From: Bacteroidota bacterium
Lineage (GTDB): Bacteria; Bacteroidota; Ignavibacteria; Tepidaquicellales; Tepidaquicellaceae
Reading direction: 5' to 3'
Length of the DNA stretch: 64,000 bases
Assembly: GCA_018266835.1 (NCBI GenBank)
Contig: JAFDZP010000002.1
Coordinates: forward strand, 1-64,000
A program made the translations under genes and the position numbers. Positions 1,110-22,667 of the stretch are shown one piece after another. The notes under the pieces are model-generated. The model saw only the letters and a program-made list of their open reading frames with translations, searched no databases and was not told the origin of the DNA. Every line of letters begins with the position of its first letter. Within the stretch, counting starts at the first letter, position 1.

Positions 1110-2021
1110 ATGTCTTCAAATCAATCAGTACAAGAAAACCAAACGGCTCCCCGGGTCCCCAGTCAGCTCCCAGGTCAGTTGAACACTTCATTCTTTCAAA
1201 GAGTAGATGGGATTGAAGAGACCGTTTCATCTGAAAGTGCCGGGAAGAAATCAAAAAATAAATCTGTAACTAATACAAAAACCCGTCCAACTAAAGAATC
1301 AAAAATCCTCCGTCAGTCAGATAAGCATTTAGTGAATATCATCTCCCGGGAAATCAAATACAAAGACCTGAATGAGAAAATGCTGAAATCAAAGCAGGAA
1401 AACGTATTTATAAAGGAAGTATCAATCGAATCAGAAATCGATTATATAAATTCTTTAAAGCAATTGAAGGGGGTATTTAAAACGGAGCTCCAAACAGCAA
1501 TTAACAAAGTAAACAGTCTTTATCAGACAGAGCTTGTTAAGCTTCAGCAGTTATACCGCTCAGCAGTTGTTGGGGAGTCGTTAATAGCGATTATTAAGAC
1601 GATAAGTAAAAAAGACTGGTATCTGCTCATGAAGGATAACTCAGTTAATGCATATAAGTTCTACAATCCTCCCTTTGAAGTTACTGAAGGATATTTCAAC
1701 TCAGGGATAGTTCACGAATATACATCTCCTGTATGTTCAATAAGAGGAATATATGTAAACATTCTGCATCACAAAATCACTCACGGAACAATACACCTTT
1801 CAACAATTGGGCAACATCCTAACTGTAATATTGGTGGATTTGGTCAAGCTTGTCCTGGAAGCTTTGAAGACAGAGATATATGTCTTGCTGATCCAAATAA
1901 ACTATTAACTCTGCTTGAAGAAATATCCTCAACATATGAGAAGATTCATCTGGATAGCAGCTATTATAAACCGACAATTCCATTTGACGTTAAGCAGGAA
2001 TATAAGTGGAAGGCCAGCTGA
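1110..2021 (+). CDS. E2-like (UBC-fold) conjugating protein
   Basis: Three hundred and three residues. Residues 1-60 are polar and low-complexity; about 90-150 are helical, probably coiled coil. The C-terminal half carries YNPPF and then H236-P-N-C-N-I-G-G-F-G-Q-A-C248-P-G. This matches the E2 core pattern HPN...G..C-L/P-G, in which the Cys is the thioester-forming residue, so Cys248 is the likely catalytic cysteine. Known bacterial E2-like families sit beside ThiF/E1 and JAB genes exactly as here. The start is the ATG at 1110; an ATG at 1106 is in another frame. The gene is 80 bases upstream of the E1-like gene on the same strand. Cys239 is a second, less likely nucleophile. Confidence 0.7.
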   Translation: MSSNQSVQENQTAPRVPSQLPGQLNTSFFQRVDGIEETVSSESAGKKSKNKSVTNTKTRPTKESKILRQSDKHLVNIISREIKYKDLNEKMLKSKQENVFIKEVSIESEIDYINSLKQLKGVFKTELQTAINKVNSLYQTELVKLQQLYRSAVVGESLIAIIKTISKKDWYLLMKDNSVNAYKFYNPPFEVTEGYFNSGIVHEYTSPVCSIRGIYVNILHHKITHGTIHLSTIGQHPNCNIGGFGQACPGSFEDRDICLADPNKLLTLLEEISSTYEKIHLDSSYYKPTIPFDVKQEYKWKAS

Positions 2022-2101
2022 TTCATAATCCAATGAAGTAGAGAAATAAGAAATTAGTAGAGTAAAAAGACTCATAAAATAAAATCAACAATCCTTTTAA
2101 A

Positions 2102-2920
2102 ATGGAAAGCACAATAACAGAAATTAATAACAGGCAGTCAAAAATAATCCCTGACCTGTCCGGTGCTATTGCAATTGTTGCCGGACTTGGAGGAATTGGT
2201 TCCTGGGTAGCTTTAGACTTAGCTTTAATAGGAGTCGGTTCAATACTCATCTACGATACAGATAAAATAGAACCAAGTAATCTAAACAGAACTTTATTCA
2301 AAGAATCACAAATCGGACAATATAAAACTGACGCAGTAAAAGAATTAATTGCAGAGAGAAGAAAGGATTGTTTAGTTCTTTCATTCGAAGAATTCTTTGA
2401 AGCAGAGATGCTGAATAAATTAGACGGTGTGGAATACTTTTTTGACTGTACCGACACAACAAGACTCAAAGACTCGATGTATGAGTTTAAAGTAAAAAAG
2501 CAGATGGAGTTTGAAGAGCTTAAAAAGAAAGAAGAGGATAAGAATAAAGTAAAAAATAAATCAAAGAAAAATTCTGAGACTTCTCAAAACAATCAATCAA
2601 ATTCAGGAGCTCAGTATGCTAATTACGGACCCGGAATTACTAATCAATATCCTGCACAATCTATAAATCAAATTCAGGAATACAAATTCCCTCAATATGT
2701 AAAGCTTGGATACGATGGATTCGAAGGAACTATCTGCCTGAATGATTTTAATGCCGGCAGATGGGGAACAGATTCAAGTTACACAATTACTCCCAGCTTC
2801 TTTGGCACTCCACAAATGTTAAGCGCAGCGGCAGTGATTGAAATGTTAATTGTCAAAAACAAGAATGCATTTACTAAAACAGTAAATGTTACAACTCTTT
2901 TGACACTTCTACACGATTAA
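2102..2920 (+). CDS. E1-like ThiF/MoeB-family adenylyltransferase
   Basis: Two hundred and seventy-two residues. The Rossmann nucleotide-binding loop is G28-L-G-G-I-G33, followed by the E1 signature YDTDKIEPSNLNR (residues 51-63), including Asp52, Asn60 and Arg63 that contact ATP in this superfamily. FFDCTDTTRLKD (about 113-124) matches the acidic adenylation-site strand. A Lys/Glu/Asn-rich low-complexity insert of about 60 residues (roughly 125-190) sits where E1 proteins have the crossover loop. There are only three cysteines; Cys212 (GTICLND) is the best candidate for a thioester-forming cysteine. The enzyme would activate the C-terminus of the ubiquitin-like protein and pass it to the E2-like protein. 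Confidence 0.85.
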   Translation: MESTITEINNRQSKIIPDLSGAIAIVAGLGGIGSWVALDLALIGVGSILIYDTDKIEPSNLNRTLFKESQIGQYKTDAVKELIAERRKDCLVLSFEEFFEAEMLNKLDGVEYFFDCTDTTRLKDSMYEFKVKKQMEFEELKKKEEDKNKVKNKSKKNSETSQNNQSNSGAQYANYGPGITNQYPAQSINQIQEYKFPQYVKLGYDGFEGTICLNDFNAGRWGTDSSYTITPSFFGTPQMLSAAAVIEMLIVKNKNAFTKTVNVTTLLTLLHD

Positions 2921-2982
2921 ATTCCTAAAGCTAATAATTAAAATTTCTTCAAACTAGCAAACTTTTTAAATCACATAAACTC

Positions 2983-4035
2983 ATGAAAGAGAAAAACTCT
3001 AAATCAGGAAGTTCAAATAATTCAGATGGAAAAGATGAATCAGACTCCGGACGAAACAAAGCTGAAAACAAAAGCAAAGAAGCTGTTTCTAAAGCTAATG
3101 GTAAAGCTACTTCCGCTCCTGATACTTTATTAACTGAAGTACATACTGCGCGAAACGGCAAAAGAAGTTCTGGTAATGATGTACTTAACTCCATTCTAAA
3201 TGAAACACGAAAACCTTCTGAAGCAGGATGGGAAAGCGGAATAAAGATACTCGATACAGTGAAGGTTATTATTCCTCTGAAGCTCCTGCTTGTTTGTAAT
3301 CAGATAGCTGACAGATTAAGTGGTGAAGAGTTCTCAATACTGGTTAATCTTACAGAGAAAGATAAAGTAATCAGATTATCAGAGGAGTTTCATATTCCGC
3401 AGCAAGTCGTTTCAAATGCATCTATTGATTACATACCGGAAGACTATAACTTCAACACAGTAATACACCGACATCCAGATGGTATGAACTCTTTCAGTTC
3501 AACAGATAAGAACTTCATCAATCAGAACTTTAAATTATCGATACTCTATACTTATAAAGATGGATTCGTTCACGGCATTTATAATCTAAAGCATGATAAT
3601 TATTTAGTTCAGCTTCCAATTGAAATAAGTGTAGATATGGGATTAGACTTAATAGACATACAGAATATCCAAACAGTCAGGGCTTCAAGAAAAGTAATTG
3701 AGATCGATGATGAAAGACTAATCGGAAATGGCAGACAATATGGTTCAATGTTTGAAGTAGAAGATGACTTACCATTCGGGCGATCAATGGATATAAGATT
3801 CGGACACAGAGGTAAACGAAGAATAATTTCAGATGATAAAATTTCAACTTTTGATTTAGATAAGGACGGGTCAGAAGAAGAGAAGCGTGAACTAAAAAAG
3901 CTCGATGAAGAGAACCTGGATTACGGTCTTATAAAGAGAATTATTCTTGAAGATGTAAATGATAATTTAGAAACCCTGGATATGCGATTGACTAACATGG
4001 AAGATTTTATTCAATATTCCGGGCATTTTATATAG
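2983..4035 (+). CDS. JAMM/JAB-family metallopeptidase
   Basis: Three hundred and fifty residues. Residues 1-85 are polar, charged linker. The central domain has the complete JAMM metal site: an upstream glutamate at E115/E116 (SGEEFSILVNL), H162-R-H164-P, and S172-S-T-D175. Members of this family remove or mature ubiquitin-like modifiers by zinc-dependent isopeptide cleavage. The C-terminal region (about 230-350) is highly charged and of unknown function. It is the last gene of the set, 62 bases after the E1-like gene. Placement with E1, E2 and a ubiquitin-like protein supports a conjugation/deconjugation role rather than a DNA-repair RadC role. Confidence 0.85.
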   Translation: MKEKNSKSGSSNNSDGKDESDSGRNKAENKSKEAVSKANGKATSAPDTLLTEVHTARNGKRSSGNDVLNSILNETRKPSEAGWESGIKILDTVKVIIPLKLLLVCNQIADRLSGEEFSILVNLTEKDKVIRLSEEFHIPQQVVSNASIDYIPEDYNFNTVIHRHPDGMNSFSSTDKNFINQNFKLSILYTYKDGFVHGIYNLKHDNYLVQLPIEISVDMGLDLIDIQNIQTVRASRKVIEIDDERLIGNGRQYGSMFEVEDDLPFGRSMDIRFGHRGKRRIISDDKISTFDLDKDGSEEEKRELKKLDEENLDYGLIKRIILEDVNDNLETLDMRLTNMEDFIQYSGHFI

Positions 4036-4191
4036 TTCTCTTCACTTACAAAATCTTTCTACTTCCATCCATTACATCCAACCTTTCATTTCATCACACT
4101 CAACCTACCAATATACCTTCCTTTGCCGAGCTCCTGCTCTTTCTCAAATTCATAAATTCACAAATTATAAATTAAATGAAAGGGGAATTTA

Positions 4192-4329
4192 ATGTTCAAT
4201 TGCATTTCGAAGGAAGTATTAAAGAAAATCTGTATAGTTGTTCTGGAAATTCTTATAGCGGATTGCTTTAATAAAGGTAAGGATTACGTGAAGACGAGGA
4301 GGAAGAAAGCAAAAAAGGGAGAGTCCTGA
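4192..4329 (+). CDS. Short basic hypothetical protein (45 aa)
   Basis: ATG at 4192 follows AAAGGGGAATTTA, one of the few strong Shine-Dalgarno sequences in this part of the window, and the frame runs 45 codons to TGA at 4327-4329. The product begins MFNCISKEVLKKICIVVLEI, a short amphipathic or hydrophobic segment with three cysteines, and ends in a Lys/Arg-rich tail. No family recognised. The ribosome-binding site is the main reason to believe it is translated. Confidence 0.4.
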   Translation: MFNCISKEVLKKICIVVLEILIADCFNKGKDYVKTRRKKAKKGES

Positions 4330-4444
4330 GAATGGATTCTTCCTTCTTGCTTTTGTTCGATTGCCACTCAAAATCCCAATTTCTTAAAATGAGTAAAAAT
4401 TTTACTCAAAATAGAAGTATTGTAAAAACAACAAAATTAAAAAC

Positions 4445-4759
4445 ATGAAACTCTTTACTAAAGAAATAGAAAAAAAGGCTCAAGCTCAATTTCCAAAAGG
4501 TAACGGCCTTGAATCTCAAGTTGTTGTTGCTAAGTTTTTCAATCCAACAGGAGCCGGAACCTGGTATCTAATGAATCAAGATCCGGAAGACACTGATTAC
4601 TGTTGGGGATTATGTCATATTTTTGAATGGGAAATGGGTAGCTTTTCTAAAAGTGAACTCGAAAATTTTAAAGGTAGAATGGGTCTAAGTATTGAGAGGG
4701 ATTTACATTTTCAAGAAGTGAGTGCGAAGGAATTGTGGGATAGTTTAATTAAAGTTTAA
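4445..4759 (+). CDS. DUF2958 family protein
   Basis: One hundred and four residues. The order of motifs is that of DUF2958: a VVAKFFNPTGAGTWYLM strand pair, a CWGLCHIFEWEMGSFSKSELENF segment, and the closing LSIERDLHF. The family is found mainly on integrative and conjugative elements and plasmids of many bacteria; its biochemical role is not known. It lies about 30 bases upstream of the tRNA-Thr remnant, i.e. at the very edge of the left element, consistent with mobile DNA. Confidence 0.8.
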   Translation: MKLFTKEIEKKAQAQFPKGNGLESQVVVAKFFNPTGAGTWYLMNQDPEDTDYCWGLCHIFEWEMGSFSKSELENFKGRMGLSIERDLHFQEVSAKELWDSLIKV

Positions 4760-4944: not shown

Positions 4945-5883
4945 TTATATCAACCCTAATATCATTTTTTTTAATTCACTAGATATACCTACATCTGATT
5001 CAATATAAGAAATCATTGCTAGTATCCTTTCATTCATATCGGAGTGTTCATTTTTAATTTTTTCATATGTTAGACTATCCATAGTATTTAAAAATATTAC
5101 ATCCAGATCACCCATGTTACCTTCCTTATACAAAGTTATATTGGTAGATAAAATAGTTGGAATATATAATTTTCTTCCCTCTTTTCTCTTCTCATTAATT
5201 TTTTTTAGATCTTCATCATGGATTTCTTTTAAACGAGAATAAACCCAATAATAAAATTCATGAACTGCTTCAATGTAATCTTCAAACAGATTTCTCAAAT
5301 CAATTTCACCACCAACATTATTCAAATACTTAAGAGTAACTTCATTTATTACTTTTATTTCATTATCTGATTTACTTCGTTTCGTTTGCTTTTCTATATA
5401 AGAAATCAAAGTATCTGTTTCTAAAAGTAATTTTCTAGAGCTTCCATTTTCTCTATCCCAATGAAATTGTCTTGAAGGAATAATAAGTTTTATGTGTTGA
5501 ACGTATTGACGTAATTGAAAAAATATATTAAAAACTGGATTAGAAGTTAACTGCATCTTTTTCTCTTCATATTCTTTATAAAATACAGGAGAATCAATCT
5601 CATAATTGCTCATAACGTTATTTGTTATACTCATTAAGGTATAAGAACTAGAAATAAAATTATGAAGATATCTATTCAAATCTCCAGCATATTTCATAAA
5701 CAAATGCCTATTATGAGTCGCAAATACTTGATCGTTTTCGGAAATAACACCATATTCAATACTTTTAGATAAGTCAATTCCGTTTCCATCAAAAATCTCT
5801 AATGCGTATTGCATCTGATCCAGTTTTCTAATTTTCTGATGTTCTGGCATATTATCTAATTCATCTAAAATATTTTGTTCCAT
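4945..5883 (-). CDS. Hypothetical protein (312 aa) downstream of the nucleotide cassette
   Basis: Unrecognised. The product is soluble, predicted largely helical, with no signal peptide or membrane segment. It has a weakly conserved-looking central part (FQLRQYVQHIKLIIPSRQFH) and a region rich in aromatic residues around 205-225 (EDYIEAVHEFYYWVYSRLKE). It is separated from the thymidylate-synthase-like gene by 161 bases that contain a possible hairpin, so it may be either the last gene of the operon or a separate unit. The base composition matches the cassette. It could be an effector or a passenger; the sequence does not decide. Confidence 0.6.
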   Translation of the reverse strand: MEQNILDELDNMPEHQKIRKLDQMQYALEIFDGNGIDLSKSIEYGVISENDQVFATHNRHLFMKYAGDLNRYLHNFISSSYTLMSITNNVMSNYEIDSPVFYKEYEEKKMQLTSNPVFNIFFQLRQYVQHIKLIIPSRQFHWDRENGSSRKLLLETDTLISYIEKQTKRSKSDNEIKVINEVTLKYLNNVGGEIDLRNLFEDYIEAVHEFYYWVYSRLKEIHDEDLKKINEKRKEGRKLYIPTILSTNITLYKEGNMGDLDVIFLNTMDSLTYEKIKNEHSDMNERILAMISYIESDVGISSELKKMILGLI

Positions 5884-6044: not shown

Positions 6045-7073
6045 TTAAGTGATGATTTTTTGTTCCTTAAATCGCTTATACCAATTTTCCCACAAAAATA
6101 ATAAAACAGGATTAGAACAATTCGATAGGATTTCTTCAATTAAATAATCCAGTCCTTTTCTTCGAGCAAATTCACTAGTTATTATTAAAAGTATATTTCT
6201 AAATGATTCCGTAGCATTTTTCCATTTTATTATTTCCAAAACTTCTTTAGACGTAACTTTGGTAAAAATTAACTGATTACAAATGCTTTCTAATTGGTTA
6301 AATAGCTTTTCTGAATTTTTTTTATCTATAGCAATTGAGTCTAAATTAGAATCAATCTTGGGATTTTTTTTAAATTCTTCAGAAGATAATAATAGATTTT
6401 TAAAATCCTTTTCATATACATGTAAACTGTCACTAAGCTGATTATATGTTCCTAGTTCTATTCCAAGCCATCCAGCAAGGACTTCTTGTAAATAAGTAAA
6501 TTGAACAAAATTATAGGGAACTCCTAAAAATATATCATTGCTCCTTAATACTTGCATCCATTCCAGCTTGTTGTCTCTTACTTTAGGAATACTGCAGATA
6601 TTACAGGGAATATCTTTACTACGCGGTCTGCCAGTTTCAAAAGGTAAATCCTTTGAGGGATTCCAGATTTGTAGTACAACTTGCCTAGTTTTACTATTAT
6701 TTGAAAGAGCTTTGTATGCACGTTCTAATTGATCAATACCATTATAATCTCTCAATCGTGACCCATATGCACCATAATAATTTTTTACATTTCCAGCAAA
6801 ATTTGGCAGACTACTATTCCAAAAATTAAGAAAATTCGCATTAGATTTTCCATTTACTATCCATACAACTTCAGCAAGTGCAAAAGCTGGATTCAAAGAG
6901 GGTTTGCGAGAAAATATCCACCTGTCTCTTGGATTTTCAAATGTGATCCCTGCATGTAATATTTCCTTGGTTGAACCTAACCTACTATCCGTAATATTTG
7001 TATTATCATCCAACATCTCACGAACAATTTTTTTCCAGACTTCGTCAGCCGACTTTCCATTAAAAGTTATCAT
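6045..7073 (-). CDS. Thymidylate synthase-family enzyme (deoxyuridylate C5-alkylating type)
   Basis: Three hundred and forty-two residues, longer than ThyA (about 264). The ThyA core is clear: TRQVVLQIWNP (129-138), catalytic P156-C157-N158 (most enzymes have PCH), then R177-S-N-D180-x-F-L-G-V-P-Y-N188 and D215-S-L-H218-V-Y220. Asn188 is the residue that in ThyA recognises uracil rather than cytosine, pointing to dUMP as substrate. The chemistry could be methylation or hydroxymethylation; the sequence does not separate these. About 110 extra C-terminal residues are helical and unrecognised. Start and stop overlap the upstream gene as ATGA, so translation is probably coupled. The neighbours argue for modified-nucleotide metabolism rather than housekeeping dTMP synthesis. 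Confidence 0.85.
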   Translation of the reverse strand: MITFNGKSADEVWKKIVREMLDDNTNITDSRLGSTKEILHAGITFENPRDRWIFSRKPSLNPAFALAEVVWIVNGKSNANFLNFWNSSLPNFAGNVKNYYGAYGSRLRDYNGIDQLERAYKALSNNSKTRQVVLQIWNPSKDLPFETGRPRSKDIPCNICSIPKVRDNKLEWMQVLRSNDIFLGVPYNFVQFTYLQEVLAGWLGIELGTYNQLSDSLHVYEKDFKNLLLSSEEFKKNPKIDSNLDSIAIDKKNSEKLFNQLESICNQLIFTKVTSKEVLEIIKWKNATESFRNILLIITSEFARRKGLDYLIEEILSNCSNPVLLFLWENWYKRFKEQKIIT

Positions 7074-8053
7074 TTTTTAATATCGTTAATTCTTTGATTA
7101 ATATTCCATTTGGGAGGATACCAGCAATTAAAACTTTTAGAAGTGGCATTAAAAATTTGTTTAATTCGAGTTCTACCGCTTGAACCTTGAATAGTTGGAA
7201 AGGCGACTCTAGAATACTTACTGATCTCACAAAATAAATTTTGACAGTCGATTAATTGTAATCTTCTACCAAATAAATTCTTAAACTTAATATTTCGTTG
7301 TTCAAATTCTAATTCCTGCCTATCACAGACAATTCTTATAACTTCACTCTCATTTAATCCACCTAAACTTGTAAAGCATTTGCTGATACCATCATATGCT
7401 CCAGGTCCAGGTATTACAAATTCGGATTCTTCAAAATTAATAAGTTCACTATAATTTAGATCTATTGTTAACTGATATGCCAAAAAGTCTCCAAAAGAAG
7501 GATAACTTTTTAAAAGGAAGAATACGTCAAGCAGTTTTTTTGATTCAGTAATTTTTTCAGGAACAAAATCCTTTATCATCAATTCAATTAATTTTAAGTG
7601 ATTACTATGTTTTCTTTTATAGCCGAATTTGTTAGCTGAAGCCATAATATATGCGCCGGAATAGATACTAAATTTATTATCTAAAACTTCATTCAAAACA
7701 CTATTATATTTTTCAAATGAATAATCTTTATAAGTAATTTCCTTAAATTCGTGAAGCAATAAATTCCAGGTCTCTATTTTATTAAATAATTTAAATAAAA
7801 GGATTCGAAAAAAAAGCTCTTTAGGAGATTGTTCCCCTTTATAAATAACATTTTTAATTAAAAATTGACTTACTTTATCTGAAGCACGGTAAGCATTTGT
7901 AAATTTGTAGTATTGCAATATTGGATCATTAGTCCAAGGAGGTTTATTATTCTTGACTCTTTTGAAAAATATCTCTTGTCTTTCTGCAGCAAACTTCCAA
8001 TATGCGTCGTATACTTCAGTAGTTTTAATTGGCTCAAGTGATTTAAATATCAT
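7070..8053 (-). CDS. Thymine-hypermodification family protein (aGPT-pyrophosphorylase / hmdU kinase helical-domain type)
   Basis: Three hundred and twenty-seven residues. Two hallmarks match the DNA-glycosylase-like helical family named after the alpha-glutamyl/putrescinyl-thymine pyrophosphorylases and the 5-hydroxymethyluracil DNA kinases of hypermodified phages: LQYYKFTNAYRASDKVSQ (47-64) and a helix-hairpin-helix-like IPGPGAYDGISKCF (214-227). The phage enzymes act on 5-hydroxymethyluracil in DNA after a thymidylate-synthase homologue has made hmdUMP. Here the same partner types (thymidylate-synthase-like, nucleotide kinase) flank it in a bacterial operon. I assign the family from memory of its motifs; the reaction is unknown. 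Six bases separate it from the kinase gene. Confidence 0.6.
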   Translation of the reverse strand: MIFKSLEPIKTTEVYDAYWKFAAERQEIFFKRVKNNKPPWTNDPILQYYKFTNAYRASDKVSQFLIKNVIYKGEQSPKELFFRILLFKLFNKIETWNLLLHEFKEITYKDYSFEKYNSVLNEVLDNKFSIYSGAYIMASANKFGYKRKHSNHLKLIELMIKDFVPEKITESKKLLDVFFLLKSYPSFGDFLAYQLTIDLNYSELINFEESEFVIPGPGAYDGISKCFTSLGGLNESEVIRIVCDRQELEFEQRNIKFKNLFGRRLQLIDCQNLFCEISKYSRVAFPTIQGSSGRTRIKQIFNATSKSFNCWYPPKWNINQRINDIKK

Positions 8054-8059
8054 AATATC

Positions 8060-8692
8060 TTAAATTATAAACTTAGCTGATTTTAAAGAATTCAAAATAT
8101 GGTTATTGATAGTTGAGTAGCTCAAATATTGGTCAATTATGATAATCTTTTCATCACTTTTCCTTTTTAATTGATTATACAAGGATCTAATATTATTCCA
8201 TTCTTCTAAATTTTTTATATTCCCATACGGTTTTGGAAAATCGAATAAAAATATAGAATTAATTTTTATATTTTTCCAAAAAATTAATTCTATATCTATT
8301 GCAGAATTTAACATTTTACTATTAATATTTTTAAGTTTTCCATATACCCACGTTGACCACCAAAATCTATCTAATAAAATTATATAATTTTCATTAAGTA
8401 AATTTTTTATTTCGTTCTCCAAAATGTTTATATGTGATGCAATATGTAATAATTGAATTGATAAAGGATTTACTTGCTCATGCAAATGATATAATTGATG
8501 ATGTAGATTGTAAATTTTTTTCCCAAAAAGATTAGTATCTTTTCCTGGAAAAGATATATATTTTGCTTTTATTTTTTCCTTTAATAACTGGTTTAATATT
8601 TTTTTTGCTATGGTGGATTTCCCAACATTGTCAGGACCCTCAAAAATAAACAACTGACCTTTTTTAAATCCATATTTTTCTTTTGTAATCAT
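8060..8692 (-). CDS. Thymidylate kinase-like deoxynucleoside monophosphate kinase
   Basis: Two hundred and ten residues, normal length for a Tmk-type kinase. The P-loop is FEGPDNVGKST (G19-P-D-N-V-G-K-S26-T27), preceded by the LFIFEG strand typical of the family, and the D108-R109 motif in LLDRFWWST corresponds to the substrate-binding DR(Y/F) of dTMP kinases. It would phosphorylate a thymidylate-like monophosphate, plausibly the product of one of the two thymidylate-synthase homologues in the operon. Four-base overlap with the upstream gene (ATGA). A housekeeping tmk is expected elsewhere in the genome, so this copy is likely specialised. Confidence 0.8.
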   Translation of the reverse strand: MITKEKYGFKKGQLFIFEGPDNVGKSTIAKKILNQLLKEKIKAKYISFPGKDTNLFGKKIYNLHHQLYHLHEQVNPLSIQLLHIASHINILENEIKNLLNENYIILLDRFWWSTWVYGKLKNINSKMLNSAIDIELIFWKNIKINSIFLFDFPKPYGNIKNLEEWNNIRSLYNQLKRKSDEKIIIIDQYLSYSTINNHILNSLKSAKFII

Positions 8693-9462
8693 TTAGAATT
8701 ATTTTTTAAACTATCAAAATGAATTTTAAACTTTTGGCGTTCTGCTTTTACACTGTCTTTTATTTCTAATAACATTTGTTTTTCTTCTTTTACATCGTTT
8801 CTCAGAATATTTAAATTATTTAAGGTTGTATTCCAAAATACAATGCAAAGAGTAACAACTATGCCCGATAATAATGTAAGCAATGAAACTGCACCCAGTG
8901 CTATATTAGTATAATTTTTTAATTTTTTTGATAATGACGCGGGAGAAGGAATTTTTCCAGAAACATCCATAATATCCTTAGAAGTAATTTTGTTTTGATC
9001 GAAGTTATTATGGCTATTATTGTACGGCTTCGTTTCCGGTGTAGTAAATTTACCAAACCAAATTGGGAAGACTCTCTGATCTTTATCTAGTACTATATCT
9101 CTTGCTCCTGCATTGTAAACAGAAAATTTTAAAATACCTTTAAAGCCAGGGTCTACATGAAAACCGGAAATATTTACAAGCCCTTTAAATTTTATGCCGG
9201 CCTTAATTGAAATTAACCCAAAAAAATCTGACGTTAATCCTAGTGTTTCTTTTGTGGTTAATAATGCAAACTGTCCTGAAGGTATAATAATTTGTGGATT
9301 TTGGTCAGATATTTTTTTTGATCCTTTTCCATCTGAAGATATATAATAATCATTCCCTAACCTCAATTCATAACATCCGCACTCGATCAAATTCTTATCA
9401 AAATCTTTTGTAAATAAATTATCTAAGTTTTTTTCTATCTCATCACTATTTAGAAAGCTCAT
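8689..9462 (-). CDS. dCTP deaminase/dUTPase-fold protein with membrane anchor and coiled coil
   Basis: Two hundred and fifty-seven residues. Residues 1-140 follow the Dcd/dUTPase jelly-roll: E27-C-G-C-Y-E-L-R-L-G, SIKAGIKFKG (85-94), HVDPGFKGIL (102-111), VFPIWF. Dcd enzymes have a catalytic Glu in the strand after DPG(W/F).G (LEL or LEF); here the strand is KFSVYN, so that Glu is absent, while Asp104 is kept. A hydrophobic segment at about 184-210 is a good single membrane helix, followed by a charged coiled coil to the end. The family is normally soluble and about 170-195 residues, so the C-terminal part is an addition. It may bind a nucleotide and report at, or disrupt, the membrane. Overlaps both neighbours by four bases. 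Confidence 0.75.
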   Translation of the reverse strand: MSFLNSDEIEKNLDNLFTKDFDKNLIECGCYELRLGNDYYISSDGKGSKKISDQNPQIIIPSGQFALLTTKETLGLTSDFFGLISIKAGIKFKGLVNISGFHVDPGFKGILKFSVYNAGARDIVLDKDQRVFPIWFGKFTTPETKPYNNSHNNFDQNKITSKDIMDVSGKIPSPASLSKKLKNYTNIALGAVSLLTLLSGIVVTLCIVFWNTTLNNLNILRNDVKEEKQMLLEIKDSVKAERQKFKIHFDSLKNNSK

Positions 9463-10226
9463 GATATAGTTTTTATGTTGTTATAAAAATCTTTTATGTC
9501 CTGTAAGTTAAATTTTGCAGGGTTATATAGGTCAGCTTTAACATTTATACAAGTAAGATTTTTAAATTGTAATCCCATTTCATGGGCTAAAAATTGACCC
9601 AAGTGACATAGCCCTTTAAAATTTCCATAAGCTCTTTCCATTATTAATTGTTTGGGATAATAAGCTATTATACTCAAACCATCACTTCCATTTGATCCTA
9701 ATGGCATAATTGATAACTGCTGTAAACATGGAAAACCATGCTGTGATTTGAAATTATGATCAAGTTTAGGATTGAAAATAGCAACTTGTAATGCGCTAAA
9801 CCTATGGTTATTTTTATTCCAACAACTAATTATATGATCTAATTGATTTGCTTTATTCTCAGCACCATCATAATTTATCATGCGATTGAAATAAATCCCG
9901 CATCTATTACGTTTTCGAGATCTAATCCTATCGGCAACTTTCAAATAATTATCAAATAAAAATTTTCTATCTTTATTTTTATTCCACAAAGAAATTGGAA
10001 ATATAGTTGAAGCTGTATTTTCAATCAATTCAAGTTTTTTCTCGACTAATTTTAAATTTAACTCTTCTTCAATTTTTGATATTATTGGAATACTATTGTT
10101 ATCTAACTCGCTTATAGAAGTAATAATAGTTGTGGAATCAGATGTTTTTTCGTCCAATAATATTTTAATGTTTTTAACCCAGGCTAAAGATAAATTTGTT
10201 TCACTGATATGAATGGTGTTATGCAT
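9459..10226 (-). CDS. Divergent thymidylate synthase-superfamily protein
   Basis: Two hundred and fifty-five residues. The C-terminal half follows the ThyA order: GFPC167LQQLSIMPL (catalytic PC plus following strand), DGLSIIAYYPKQ, RAYGN202FKGLCHLGQFLAHEMGL. The canonical RS.D after the strand is replaced by PKQ, and the N-terminal half is not recognisable, so folate or substrate handling is probably altered. It resembles the short archaeal-type ThyA-like proteins more than bacterial ThyA. With the gene at 6045-7073 it makes two thymidylate-synthase homologues in one operon. It overlaps the ImmA/IrrE gene by eight bases and the Dcd-like gene by four. Confidence 0.65.
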   Translation of the reverse strand: MHNTIHISETNLSLAWVKNIKILLDEKTSDSTTIITSISELDNNSIPIISKIEEELNLKLVEKKLELIENTASTIFPISLWNKNKDRKFLFDNYLKVADRIRSRKRNRCGIYFNRMINYDGAENKANQLDHIISCWNKNNHRFSALQVAIFNPKLDHNFKSQHGFPCLQQLSIMPLGSNGSDGLSIIAYYPKQLIMERAYGNFKGLCHLGQFLAHEMGLQFKNLTCINVKADLYNPAKFNLQDIKDFYNNIKTIS

Positions 10227-11073
10227 TACTGTCCTCCAAAAATTTATATTGGTAATCTCCTATATATTTGTTGCGTGAGACCCTTACAAATGATGACCAT
10301 TTTGTTACAGGGTTAATTAATTTGGAAATACCAAGTTGATTTGCAATGTAAAAATTAGAATTATTGTTTTCTTTAATTTTTAAAATTGAAGTACCTTCAA
10401 CTAGGATTTCTTTTTCCGTTGAGAGATAATCATTAATTTCTATATCAATTAATTCGTTTTCCCAAAACGAATCTATTATGTATAGGTTTGTATTGCAGGG
10501 TGCTTCAAATAATTCCTCTCTTAATTTAATTGGGCGACTTTTTAATAAACTCTCACAATGTATATTAGTAATAATTTTAAGAGTATATGATAAATGTTTA
10601 ACTAATGTAGAATAACCTACTCCAAAATATCTAGAAAGTATATAAATTTGAATAGGTGTAAGATCTTTAGGCTTCCATTCTCTAAGATTAATTGCTCTAT
10701 CAATTAGCATTTTAGGGAGAAGTAAAAAACCCGCAAATAAATTGGTAATCCTCTCTTCTTTTACTGAGGCGTAATTATTAATTATAAGATCTAAAGTTGT
10801 TTGGTGTCCATAAAAATGGTGAGCAAATTCGTGAGCACAATTAAAGTTCTTTCGACCTGTTGGTCTATTAATGTTTAAAATAATATTAGGACCTGGATTT
10901 TTGCAATAAAGACCTTCGAAGCTATTTGCCTCAACAAATATAATATTTATTTTATCATCATATTTGTTTACAACATCATAAATATTTATTGGGACAGATT
11001 GCTTTATATTTAATGAGTGTCTTATTTTATAAGCATCTCTGAATATCTGTGATATTTCTAGTTTGTTAAGCAT
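10219..11073 (-). CDS. ImmA/IrrE-family metallopeptidase
   Basis: Two hundred and eighty-four residues. The zinc-binding H81-E-F-A-H85 (NCAHEFAHHFYGH) and the downstream E107-R-I-T-N-L-F-A-G-F-L-L-L-P, equivalent to the E.eAN.FAA.LLMP motif of IrrE/ImmA, are intact. Members of this family cleave a partner XRE-type repressor on a stress signal and so switch on the adjoining operon, as ImmA does for ImmR. The start overlaps the stop of the XRE gene by one base, the usual pairing. The C-terminal third (about 190-284) is an extra domain that could sense the inducing ligand. Confidence 0.85.
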   Translation of the reverse strand: MLNKLEISQIFRDAYKIRHSLNIKQSVPINIYDVVNKYDDKINIIFVEANSFEGLYCKNPGPNIILNINRPTGRKNFNCAHEFAHHFYGHQTTLDLIINNYASVKEERITNLFAGFLLLPKMLIDRAINLREWKPKDLTPIQIYILSRYFGVGYSTLVKHLSYTLKIITNIHCESLLKSRPIKLREELFEAPCNTNLYIIDSFWENELIDIEINDYLSTEKEILVEGTSILKIKENNNSNFYIANQLGISKLINPVTKWSSFVRVSRNKYIGDYQYKFLEDSNA

Positions 11074-11417
11074 TAATTATTTGATTTTAACGATTGTAAT
11101 ATACTAATAACCTTATCAAAATCTTCCTTTTTTAGCTTCTCTAATTCACGAAACTGTAAACTTAATTTATCCACTAAAGTATTCGCAGTATCATCTATAC
11201 AACTCAACCACTTAATTTCGACTTTGTAGATATTGGAAAACTCAACTAACTCTTCTGCTGTTACACTTCTTCTACCTGCTTCAATTTCTGAAATAGTTGG
11301 TCTGGACATATTGAGCATTTTGGCTACTTGACTTTGAGAAAGCCCAATTTGCTTTCTAGCTAGACTTAGCCGAGAGGCTATTTCTTGCTTTTTTTCTTCC
11401 ATTTGATTTGCTTTCAT
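11073..11417 (-). CDS. XRE-family helix-turn-helix repressor
   Basis: One hundred and fourteen residues. The HTH_3 domain spans about residues 12-70: ASRLSLARKQIGLSQSQVAKML, then NMSRPTISEIEAGRRSVTAEEL. The C-terminal 40 residues are charged and helical, the likely target for the co-transcribed ImmA/IrrE peptidase. Two palindromes upstream of the first gene of the operon are natural binding sites. The first in-frame ATG overlaps the preceding gene by 62 bases; an internal ATG at codon 6 would shorten the overlap without losing the domain. Confidence 0.85.
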   Translation of the reverse strand: MKANQMEEKKQEIASRLSLARKQIGLSQSQVAKMLNMSRPTISEIEAGRRSVTAEELVEFSNIYKVEIKWLSCIDDTANTLVDKLSLQFRELEKLKKEDFDKVISILQSLKSNN

Positions 11418-11679
11418 TGGTAATTATTTTTGTAATGTTTTCAATAACACTTTTAATTGTTTGAGGGACATAATCTACAACAAATAAGTTATCTGGTATT
11501 TTAATATCCAAAATGATTTCTAATTTTGTACATATAAATTCACCGCTCAAGCTATCAAAACCATCAAGACCTTTTACAGGAATTGTTATTAGATTTATAT
11601 ATTGATATCTTTGAGCACACTCATTTTGATGTTCATGTAGAATGTTTATTAATGTATCTTGTATTTCAGATTCCGTCAT
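11356..11679 (-). CDS. Small hypothetical protein, first gene of the cassette
   Basis: One hundred and seven residues, no family recognised. It is probably alpha/beta, with a hydrophobic core segment (FICTKLEIILDIKIPDNLFVVDY) and a Lys/Ser/Arg-rich tail. The start is well supported: AAAAGGAGACCAC precedes the ATG, a good Shine-Dalgarno at normal spacing, and the operator pair lies 27 bases further upstream. The 62-base overlap with the XRE gene is unusually long and suggests coupled or competing translation. Confidence 0.6.
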   Translation of the reverse strand: MTESEIQDTLINILHEHQNECAQRYQYINLITIPVKGLDGFDSLSGEFICTKLEIILDIKIPDNLFVVDYVPQTIKSVIENITKIITNESKSNGRKKARNSLSAKSS

Positions 11680-11705
11680 GTGGTCTCCTTTTAATTCCGT
11701 AATTG

Positions 11706-11740
11706 CTTACCGGCTGTAAGAATAACTTACCAATTGTAAG
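11706..11740. promoter_or_regulatory. Pair of CTTAC-N5-GTAAG operators
   Basis: Two perfect palindromes, CTTACcggctGTAAG (11706-11720) and CTTACcaattGTAAG (11726-11740), have centres exactly 20 bp apart, i.e. two helical turns on the same DNA face. They lie just upstream of the first gene of the minus-strand operon. The half-site and spacing fit cooperative binding of dimers of the XRE protein encoded as the second gene. This is an autoregulatory arrangement by inference; the repeats themselves are plain in the sequence. Confidence 0.75.
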
Positions 11741-11779: not shown

Positions 11780-12472
11780 TTAATTCAAAGGGTGTTTTAA
11801 AATTTGTTCCCTCAAATGATGTACGCATGCCGCCAAATAAATTGTAGTAGTTTTTATATCACTATGCCCCATCATCTTTGACAAAGAGAAAATATCGCAA
11901 CCTCCTTCCAGCATGAGCGTTGCAAATGTATGTCGTAACTTATGAACATGAAATTTTATCCCCGAAGCTTCTTTAATTCTTTCTACTAGTCTTTTTATAC
12001 CACTCTCTGTAAATCCCATATCATAAGTATATGAAGTAAAAAATTCGGGGCAAGTCTTGTCTGCTTTCTTCCTTACTTCTACATATTTTTATAATGCTTC
12101 AGCTAGCAGATAATTAATCGGAATCACTCTATCCTTACTTCCTTTCCTTTGCCTTATAAATATTGAAAGATTTTCTATATCAACATCAGCATACTTCAAA
12201 TCTAATAGCTCTTGTTTTCTTAAACCACTCATGATGAAAGTTGAAAATATAGCATAGTACCTGTAAAGCAAAAACTTGTTATCGCAAGGATAATTGTCAA
12301 ACACTTCCATGATCCGCATCGTATCTCGCTTTCTTAATTTACAAGGCAGTATCTTTTCAAGCTTTGGGATCTCAATATCATCCATCGGATTGAATGACAT
12401 ATTACCTTACTTTATATACCATCGAAAGAAAACAACTAATGACTTATGAGAGACGATATTTCTTATTTTGTT
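11780..12472 (-). pseudogene. Decayed XerC/D-type tyrosine recombinase
   Basis: One reading frame holds a recombinase core interrupted by clean nonsense codons. The 3' part has HKLRHTFATLMLEGG, MGHSDIKTTTIY (the His-x-x-Arg box and the Tyr nucleophile); the middle has SGLRKQELLDLKYADVD (first catalytic Arg); upstream comes FFRWYIK-stop-GNMSFNPMDDIEIPK, the usual link from the N-terminal to the catalytic domain. TAA codons fall at 12091-12089 and 12409-12407, and another in-frame stop (TAG) at about 12475-12473, with no frameshift between them. The residues between the first two fragments (23 codons) read as normal coding sequence. It marks a dead element inside the island. Confidence 0.85.
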
Positions 12473-21442: not shown

Positions 21443-22492
21443 ATGGCATCATTATATAAAATAAAAGGCCGTAAAACTTTTTACTTAAGCTACAGGCTAA
21501 ATAATAAAAACAAAGTAATAAATACAAATATACCCCTAAACAAAAAGAATTTAGCGGAAGAATTTCAAAAAGAATTTGAAGCAAAATTATTTCTTTTAAG
21601 CAAAAGTGATTCTCTTAATTTTAAGATTGAAAAAGACACCCAAGAAAATACTATTACTTTAGGGGATGCAATTAAAGTATTTATCAAAATATATACAGTA
21701 TCTTGGTCTGAAGGGCGACTTTCGAATGTTCAAACGGTGTTAAAAATATTAAAGGAATTTTTAAATCCTGACACCAAAGTGAAAGATATTACATCTCAAG
21801 ATTTATCAGATTTTATAGTCAAAAGGAAAGAAAAAATAAGTGTTACTACAGTGCGATCAGATTTACAAATTCTTAGGATGTTTTTTAACCATCTCGTAGA
21901 AGAAAATATTCTTCAAAAGTCACCATTAAATAAAAAGTTAATTCCAAAACCTGTAATTAAAAATATTGTAACTATGAATGAAGTAGAACTAGAACGTATT
22001 TTTCATTTTACAAAAATGAAAGATAGGTTATTCTTCAAGTATTTAAAATTATTAAGTTTGACAGGTGCAAGGCCAGGAGATATTTTAAGATTAAAGTATG
22101 GTGATTTTGATTTGAAATCAGGGATATTAAAAATTAGTGTTTCAAAAACACAAAGAGAAATTGATTTTCCAATATATGAAGAGTTAAAATTATTTATTAG
22201 AGATGAATTTAAAAATATTAAAAACTCTTCTCCTGAAACAGAAATTTTTAAAGAATATAAATCTTTTACTTTAGGAAGGAAATTTTTAAGATTGAAAAGA
22301 ACACTTAAACTTGATGAAGAGTTTAACTTGAAAACGTTCCGAAAAACATTTGCTACAAAATTAATTAGTAGTGGAGTAGATGGTTCAATTGTTGCTCATT
22401 TATTAGGTCATACATCCGTTAATACAACGAGTAAATATTATATTCGGAAGAATACAACTTCAATTAAAAATATTTTAGATGAAATAAAATAA
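21443..22492 (+). CDS. Tyrosine recombinase/integrase
   Basis: Three hundred and forty-nine residues, full length. A SAM-like N-terminal domain (about 75-165) precedes the catalytic domain. Active-site residues: Arg in SLTGARPGDILRL, Lys in the following beta strands, K-T-F-R-K-T-F-A (His of H-x-x-R replaced by Thr), LLGHTSVNTTSKYY with the Tyr nucleophile. The His-to-Thr change is tolerated in some family members. It lies about 100 bases from tRNA-Glu, the probable attachment target, and is paired with the excisionase-like gene. Confidence 0.85.
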   Translation: MASLYKIKGRKTFYLSYRLNNKNKVINTNIPLNKKNLAEEFQKEFEAKLFLLSKSDSLNFKIEKDTQENTITLGDAIKVFIKIYTVSWSEGRLSNVQTVLKILKEFLNPDTKVKDITSQDLSDFIVKRKEKISVTTVRSDLQILRMFFNHLVEENILQKSPLNKKLIPKPVIKNIVTMNEVELERIFHFTKMKDRLFFKYLKLLSLTGARPGDILRLKYGDFDLKSGILKISVSKTQREIDFPIYEELKLFIRDEFKNIKNSSPETEIFKEYKSFTLGRKFLRLKRTLKLDEEFNLKTFRKTFATKLISSGVDGSIVAHLLGHTSVNTTSKYYIRKNTTSIKNILDEIK

Positions 22493-22520
22493 GGTAGGAA
22501 ATAGAAATAATTTTGTAAAA

Positions 22521-22544
22521 ATTACTGACAGAATTACTGACAGA
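22521..22544. repeat. Two tandem copies of ATTACTGACAGA
   Basis: Two exact 12-base copies sit between the integrase stop and tRNA-Glu. Position suggests integrase arm-type binding sites, comparable to the 11-mer repeats next to the tRNA-Thr remnant, though the two sequences differ. Confidence 0.45.
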
Positions 22545-22552
22545 ATACTAAC

Positions 22553-22590
22553 AAAAAAATGTCCCTGTAACTATCATATATTACAGGGAC
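22553..22590 (-). terminator. Terminator of tRNA-Glu
   Basis: GTCCCTGTAA and TTACAGGGAC form a perfect 10-bp stem with a 10-base loop. On the minus strand the stem is followed by A then seven T. It lies five bases beyond the tRNA 3' end and is correctly oriented for it. Confidence 0.85.
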
Positions 22591-22595
22591 TTACG

Positions 22596-22667
22596 CGGTC
22601 CCAACGGGATTCGAACCCGTGTTTTCACTGTGAAAGAGTGACGACCTAACCCCTAGTCGATGGGACC
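22596..22667 (-). tRNA. tRNA-Glu (TTC)
   Basis: Cloverleaf on the minus strand: acceptor GGTCCCA/TGGGACC with discriminator G at 22596, D-arm with AGGGGTTAGG, anticodon stem TCACT/AGTGA with loop CTTTCAC (anticodon TTC at 22634-22632), T-arm CACGGGTTCGAATCCCGT. CCA is not encoded. It is intact, and the integrase gene lies on its 3' side, the usual place for integration at a tRNA gene. Confidence 0.95.

Follow-up and report, generated by a model that had tools for sequence, protein, structure and literature searches.

Operons of the cyclic-oligonucleotide-based antiphage signalling systems (CBASS) are controlled by pairs of XRE and ImmA proteins. ImmA/IrrE proteases relieve XRE-type repressors, as PprI does when it encounters single-stranded DNA (PMC10904395). 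On the phage side, the DNA of phage M6 carries 5-(2-aminoethyl)deoxyuridine, and 5-hydroxymethyl-deoxyuridine (5-hmdU) is phosphorylated within DNA by a dedicated kinase (PMC6449724). The 2026 DefensePredictor paper measured protection against phage by E. coli systems that hold thymidylate synthase and 5-hydroxymethyluracil kinase domains, and predicted MazG, MazG-C, dUTPase, and nucleotide-modification domains to be defensive (PMC13092281). The subject of the present analysis is an eight-gene operon in a 64,000-nucleotide stretch of Bacteroidota DNA (positions 1 to 64,000 of contig JAFDZP010000002.1, hereafter the window). On balance, we favour reading this operon as an inducible, horizontally spread conflict cassette, most likely anti-phage, built around phage-type 5-hydroxymethyl-deoxyuridine (hmdU) chemistry.

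The eight open reading frames that an initial annotation of the window had placed within 6045-11740 are present on the minus strand; coding ends at 11679, and the genes are designated A to H in transcription order. Starting from the 5'-most coding end of the cassette (11679), they encode an acyl carrier protein recognised by profile matches to such proteins in the PDB (A, 11356..11679), an XRE repressor (B, 11073..11417; HTH_3 2.9e-15, capH 1.5e-10), an ImmA/IrrE metallopeptidase (C, 10219..11073; PF06114 8e-11, capP 9e-13), a divergent protein of the thymidylate synthase fold (D, 9459..10226; TIGR03283 4.4e-9), a dCTP-deaminase fold followed by a C-terminal transmembrane helix and a charged tail (E, 8689..9462; TIGR02274 5e-19), a predicted thymidylate-kinase-like P-loop (deoxy)nucleoside monophosphate kinase (F, 8060..8692; PF02223 6e-18), an HMUDK_hel protein (G, 7070..8053; PF18723, 1.7e-107), and a predicted dUMP hydroxymethylase (H, 6045..7073; PF00303 2e-25). 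The spacings between consecutive genes (-62, -1, -8, -4, -4, +6, and -4 nt) argue for a single operon. The HTH_3 and PF06114 matches bear out the XRE/ImmA control assigned by the initial annotation, and family searches likewise recovered its two proteins of the thymidylate synthase fold, the DCD domain with a hydrophobic C-terminal helix, the thymidylate-kinase-like P-loop protein, and HMUDK_hel. B and C score against the CapH and CapP proteins (XRE/ImmA) of CBASS; the present operon differs in placing a carrier protein before the XRE gene and a thymidylate-synthase-fold protein after ImmA, and no match to the CD-NTase of CBASS was found among the eight proteins.

When bacterial genomes were scanned with G, at least 532 relatives came to light; the 80 best were annotated with purpose-built profiles together with plasmid and same-phylum loci. 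After the removal of three duplicates, 94 distinct loci remained, in which proteins closely related to the window's G are over-represented; a second sample, of 396 evenly drawn genomes from the same phylum, is free of that lean. Since F and G are fused into a single protein in 23 other loci, co-occurrence in the loci was counted by domain. A, B, C, and D were found together in 69 of the 94 loci, contiguous and in the same order in 66 of these, and D was accompanied by ImmA in 73 of 74. All eight genes are present in nine loci, namely those of the window, Fodinibius, and the genomes titled Myxococcales, ‘bacterium OM1’, Bryobacterales, Dehalococcoidia, Verrucomicrobiales, Chloracidobacterium, and Phycisphaerae, and the cassette recurs across at least 10 bacterial phyla. 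G is uncommon: 7 of the 396 evenly drawn genomes have it, and it is absent from all 28 relatives within the family. D is present in six of the same 396 genomes and adjoins G in five (P = 1.6e-9). A chance neighbourhood, which the initial annotation had named as the finding that would overturn it, was rejected on the linkage in both samples. The set is not limited to this genome, and a point missed by the initial annotation is that defence against phage has already been assayed for systems in which related domains occur (PMC13092281).

In the sixth D-bearing genome of the even sample, D adjoins MazG_C and a uracil-DNA glycosylase fusion. A minimal variant (locus L123, 7442-11381) lacks XRE/ImmA and combines D with MazG_C, a trypsin-like protease, and a uracil-DNA glycosylase that bears a fused Panacea (SocA-like) domain. 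On alphaproteobacterial plasmids (loci L119-L122), the series XRE-ImmA-papain-like protease-D faces a MazG_C gene and, where annotated, lies beside a gene of the uracil-DNA glycosylase superfamily; these loci share the XRE-ImmA-D series with the present operon but carry MazG_C and, where annotated, the glycosylase gene instead of G, along with the extra papain-like protease. Adjoining the D locus of one of them, from Bradyrhizobium (L121, 9615-11798), is a metallophosphoesterase with a thymidylate-synthase-like second half (PF00303 1.2e-3). A search for a MazG_C partner elsewhere in the source genome found none, its positive control having worked. The A-B-C-D set and the pair of TIR with Nmad2 (PF18753) are largely mutually exclusive: Nmad2 occurs in 15 of the 16 TIR loci, and D meets TIR in three loci as against 12.6 expected (p ~1e-8). 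The partners of G are F and H, or a MazG-MazG_C protein (PF18722), or a radical SAM gene; the MazG-MazG_C protein occurs with H in six loci as against 16 expected (p 5e-6), and never with radical SAM. These parts are combined in yet another way in loci L013 (6358-11516) and L029, where G is found with radical SAM and a 500-aa protein without family assignment, the Parabacteroides locus also holding TIR and Nmad2.

The distinctive part of the cassette is the module of carrier protein, XRE, ImmA, and thymidylate-synthase-like protein, of which no description was found in the literature reached, an earlier partial description being possible; the main text of the DefensePredictor paper mentions neither acyl carrier nor ImmA (PMC13092281). 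The initial annotation had rightly recorded a small protein at the head of the operon but missed its identity. By sequence, the 107-aa product of gene A belongs to the acyl carrier proteins: a profile of its family gave 123 matches in the PDB, with a best value of 1.3e-6, and each of the top 60 is an acyl carrier protein or a related carrier. The putative attachment residue, Ser43 in a GFDSL motif, is invariant across 62 homologues that are variable elsewhere. In gene C, the HExxH motif is intact, and H81, E82, H85, and E107 are invariant in 69 homologues. Upstream of the operon, a pattern search revealed two CTTAC-N5-GTAAG palindromes at 11706-11720 and 11726-11740 (minus strand). Lying 20 nt apart, they are the sole two matches in 64 kb (0.04 expected), a number reached in none of 100 shuffles, and are probably the XRE operators. 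Such a pair was present in merely 4 of 72 upstream regions (0.6 expected), so that the twin palindromes are specific to this locus, and they were rejected as a family-wide feature. By analogy with PprI and the XRE/ImmA pairs of CBASS, we infer that XRE would repress the operon at these twin operators in the resting state, and that infection or DNA damage would lead ImmA to inactivate XRE in the manner of PprI/IrrE and so turn the operon on. The carrier protein, which is the first to be translated, is probably part of the switch, perhaps by way of its pantetheine arm.

The chemistry proposed for the cassette begins with gene H. The initial annotation had termed H a second thymidylate synthase homologue; the family assignment stands, whereas the closest likeness is predicted to be with dUMP hydroxymethylases and not with a housekeeping thymidylate synthase. 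The catalytic residues of thymidylate synthase (Cys157, Arg177, Asp180, Asn188, His218, and Tyr220) are invariant. Among the phage proteins nearest to H are those of SPO1, SP8, and Goe9, with phage G gp319 also close, and the SPO1 and Goe9 relatives are annotated as dUMP hydroxymethylase or deoxyuridylate hydroxymethyltransferase. H aligns with the SPO1-group enzyme (gp29) over approximately 90% of its length with the catalytic residues kept, but is only about 28% identical to it and sits in a bacterial operon. The H-family profile matched the CMP hydroxymethylase MilA at 5e-41 as against 1e-21 for the best thymidylate synthase, a separation of some 20 orders of magnitude. H as the thymidylate synthase of the host was rejected on the presence of ThyX in the source genome, where no ThyA-type match besides H was found; with ThyX and a Dcd of its own, the host would need neither H nor E for housekeeping.

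MilA, which we take to be an enzyme of mildiomycin synthesis, is the best solved relative of H, and acpS lies nearby in 36 of the 94 loci and radical SAM in nine. These features would suit a nucleoside antibiotic cluster, in which a hydroxymethyl-uracil or hydroxymethyl-cytosine nucleoside, with an acyl or aminoacyl group loaded by the carrier protein, is exported against competitors. We consider such a cluster very unlikely, given the strict tie to XRE/ImmA and given that genes for adenylation, transport, or self-resistance are neither among the eight nor recurrent in the flanks of related loci.

The phage character of the pathway, also put forward in the initial annotation, is supported by homology in F and G as well. 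G is modelled as an all-helical protein (predicted local distance difference test, pLDDT, 91) with a GPGA hairpin motif, and 22 columns of its alignment do not vary between the phage and bacterial proteins, C275-E276, K279, R282, and K298-Q299 among them. Its homologue in phage M6, gp055 (2e-24), adjoins the P-loop protein gp054, with the thymidylate synthase gp058 three genes further on; in phage Epa43, the kinase, G, and thymidylate synthase are contiguous. We take gp054 to be the M6 5-hmdU kinase. Its gene (locus L124, 21686-22249) was deposited as a terminase small subunit, yet it encodes a small P-loop protein beside a PF18723 gene and is probably a 5-hmdU kinase. The thymidine-hypermodification operons of M6 and Epa43 thus resemble the present operon in keeping a P-loop kinase, a PF18723 protein, and an enzyme of the thymidylate synthase family close together, the PF18723 protein here standing beside the kinase as in the phage pathway. 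They differ in that their kinase probably belongs to another P-loop group (the F profile scores E 0.029 against gp054, F itself being thymidylate-kinase-like) and in adding an amino-acid:DNA transferase and tailoring enzymes, whereas the present operon adds the repressor/protease switch and the membrane Dcd. A phage 5-phosphomethyl-deoxyuridine glycinyltransferase was among the weaker Foldseek neighbours of G; G as a homologue of the amino-acid:DNA transferase was rejected, its comparison with M6 gp051 not being significant.

The F-G-H layout, mirroring that of hypermodified phages, together with the many homologues on conjugative plasmids, raises the alternative that the enzymes mark the DNA of the mobile element itself against restriction, as such phages do. 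We hold this to be unlikely: family searches with the eight operon proteins gave no match to an amino-acid:DNA transferase (aGPT-PPlase, M6 gp051 type), and XRE/ImmA control and the exchange with TIR-Nmad2 better suit a response system than a constant mark. Under the conflict reading that we prefer, H would convert dUMP into 5-hydroxymethyl-dUMP, F would then phosphorylate it, and G would target hydroxymethyl-uracil as nucleotide or base, presumably like its homologue next to the kinase of M6. The cassette would yield nucleotides or DNA containing hydroxymethyl-uracil, and phage propagation would be blocked either by poisoned replicating DNA or by action of the product as a ligand. Human work treats hydroxymethyl-dUMP as needing removal by a pool sanitiser (PMC10603095), which makes a poison plausible; the product may equally well be a ligand that D or E binds.

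The predicted structure of D is a thymidylate synthase fold (pLDDT 94.5), the best Foldseek matches being thymidylate synthases and MilA (~1e-7). In a profile alignment with H, the nucleophile Cys167 and the base-reading Asn202 are invariant, and the Arg-Ser-x-Asp (RSxD, with the phosphate Arg and the Asp) and His-x-Tyr (HxY) motifs of thymidylate synthase are replaced, from which D should read a pyrimidine without the usual binding of a free deoxynucleoside monophosphate. Keeping the base-reading half of the site, D may be a reader or processor within the switch. E can be aligned with the dCTP deaminase that the host has of its own, which retains the catalytic glutamate (E. coli Glu138). E has Ser at this position, 31 of 32 homologues have Ser or Ala there, and E as an active dCTP deaminase was rejected on the loss of this residue. 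Without it, E is probably a sensor; of 37 homologues, 35 share its C-terminal transmembrane segment. The initial annotation had offered the membrane Dcd as sensor or effector, of which the first part may hold; E is present in only 36 of the 94 loci and thus cannot be an obligatory effector. E or TIR in that role was rejected, both being missing from 50 loci, where the flanks show no other recurrent partner or candidate effector; the core enzymes must then suffice, with E as an accessory, conceivably an optional extra receptor, membrane-bound and derived from a dCTP deaminase that has lost its activity.

An E that sits in the membrane as an inactive nucleotide-binding enzyme, together with a D that retains the Cys and Asn and not the monophosphate site, would also fit a guard, in which E and D monitor a pyrimidine pool disturbed by phage, H, F, and G make the ligand constitutively, and its loss or excess triggers an effector. 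The absence of E from 58 of the 94 loci, and of any recurrent candidate effector from the 50 that lack both E and TIR, renders such a guard doubtful. A bolder form of the conflict reading would see a new class of immunity, with an hmdU nucleotide as inducible second messenger or poison, read by the carrier protein/XRE/ImmA switch through D and, if present, the receptor E; we put this forward only tentatively, as possible but not probable.

Several points weigh against the conflict cassette that we favour. Approximately half of the loci carry the MazG-MazG_C protein in place of F and H, so that only some of them would make hmdU by the H route. The choice between thymidylate synthase and hydroxymethylase for H is a homology call, no residue test separating the two here. 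The best structural neighbours of G are hairpin DNA glycosylases, weakly matched (Foldseek E 0.1, probability 0.80); G as a canonical glycosylase was rejected on that weakness. The window holds all three of the domains named for the DefensePredictor systems (thymidylate synthase, deoxynucleoside monophosphate kinase, and 5-hmdU kinase), which match F, G, and H by domain name; with such systems validated, the kind is partly known (PMC13092281). No copies of the cassette were found in E. coli by DNA similarity. Genes, families, operators, conservation, and linkage can be read from the DNA, while each reaction, trigger, and outcome, phage phenotype included, is what we infer from them. If the reading is true, bacteria turn phage DNA-modification chemistry into an inducible defence, a modified pyrimidine nucleotide joins the cyclic nucleotides and ADP-ribose derivatives that at present dominate immune chemistry, and acyl carrier proteins gain a role in conflict; with at least 532 relatives of G, the answer would apply to many phyla.

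The bacterial island proposed in the initial annotation is supported, and as a mobile one. Many homologues sit on conjugative plasmids, with CBASS-type phospholipase, TIR, SIR2, caspase-family, ABC-three-component (ABC-3C), and CHAT genes as neighbours. PADLOC 2.0.0 held no model matching G and matched the set only as single genes. A contig from a viral collection (L128) carries the series acyl carrier protein-XRE-ImmA-D, an F-G fusion, and radical SAM, so that phages or satellites may be further carriers of the cassette. In the window, a tyrosine integrase (21443-22667) ends ~100 nt from a tRNA-Glu gene, likely the right end of an integrated element; a second copy of the tRNA-Glu end was not found in the window, which starts at the contig edge. 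Just upstream of the operon (11780-12400), two tyrosine recombinase fragments in a broken frame are probably the relic of an earlier integration. A 312-aa gene on the other side (4945-5883) has no relatives in the compared loci and was excluded from the cassette. Further out, at 1110-4759, a ThiF/E1-like gene (PF00899) lies between two genes without family assignment, of which the latter may encode a JAB-like HxH motif; a DUF2958 gene follows, and the set is reminiscent of the PRTRC modules of mobile elements.

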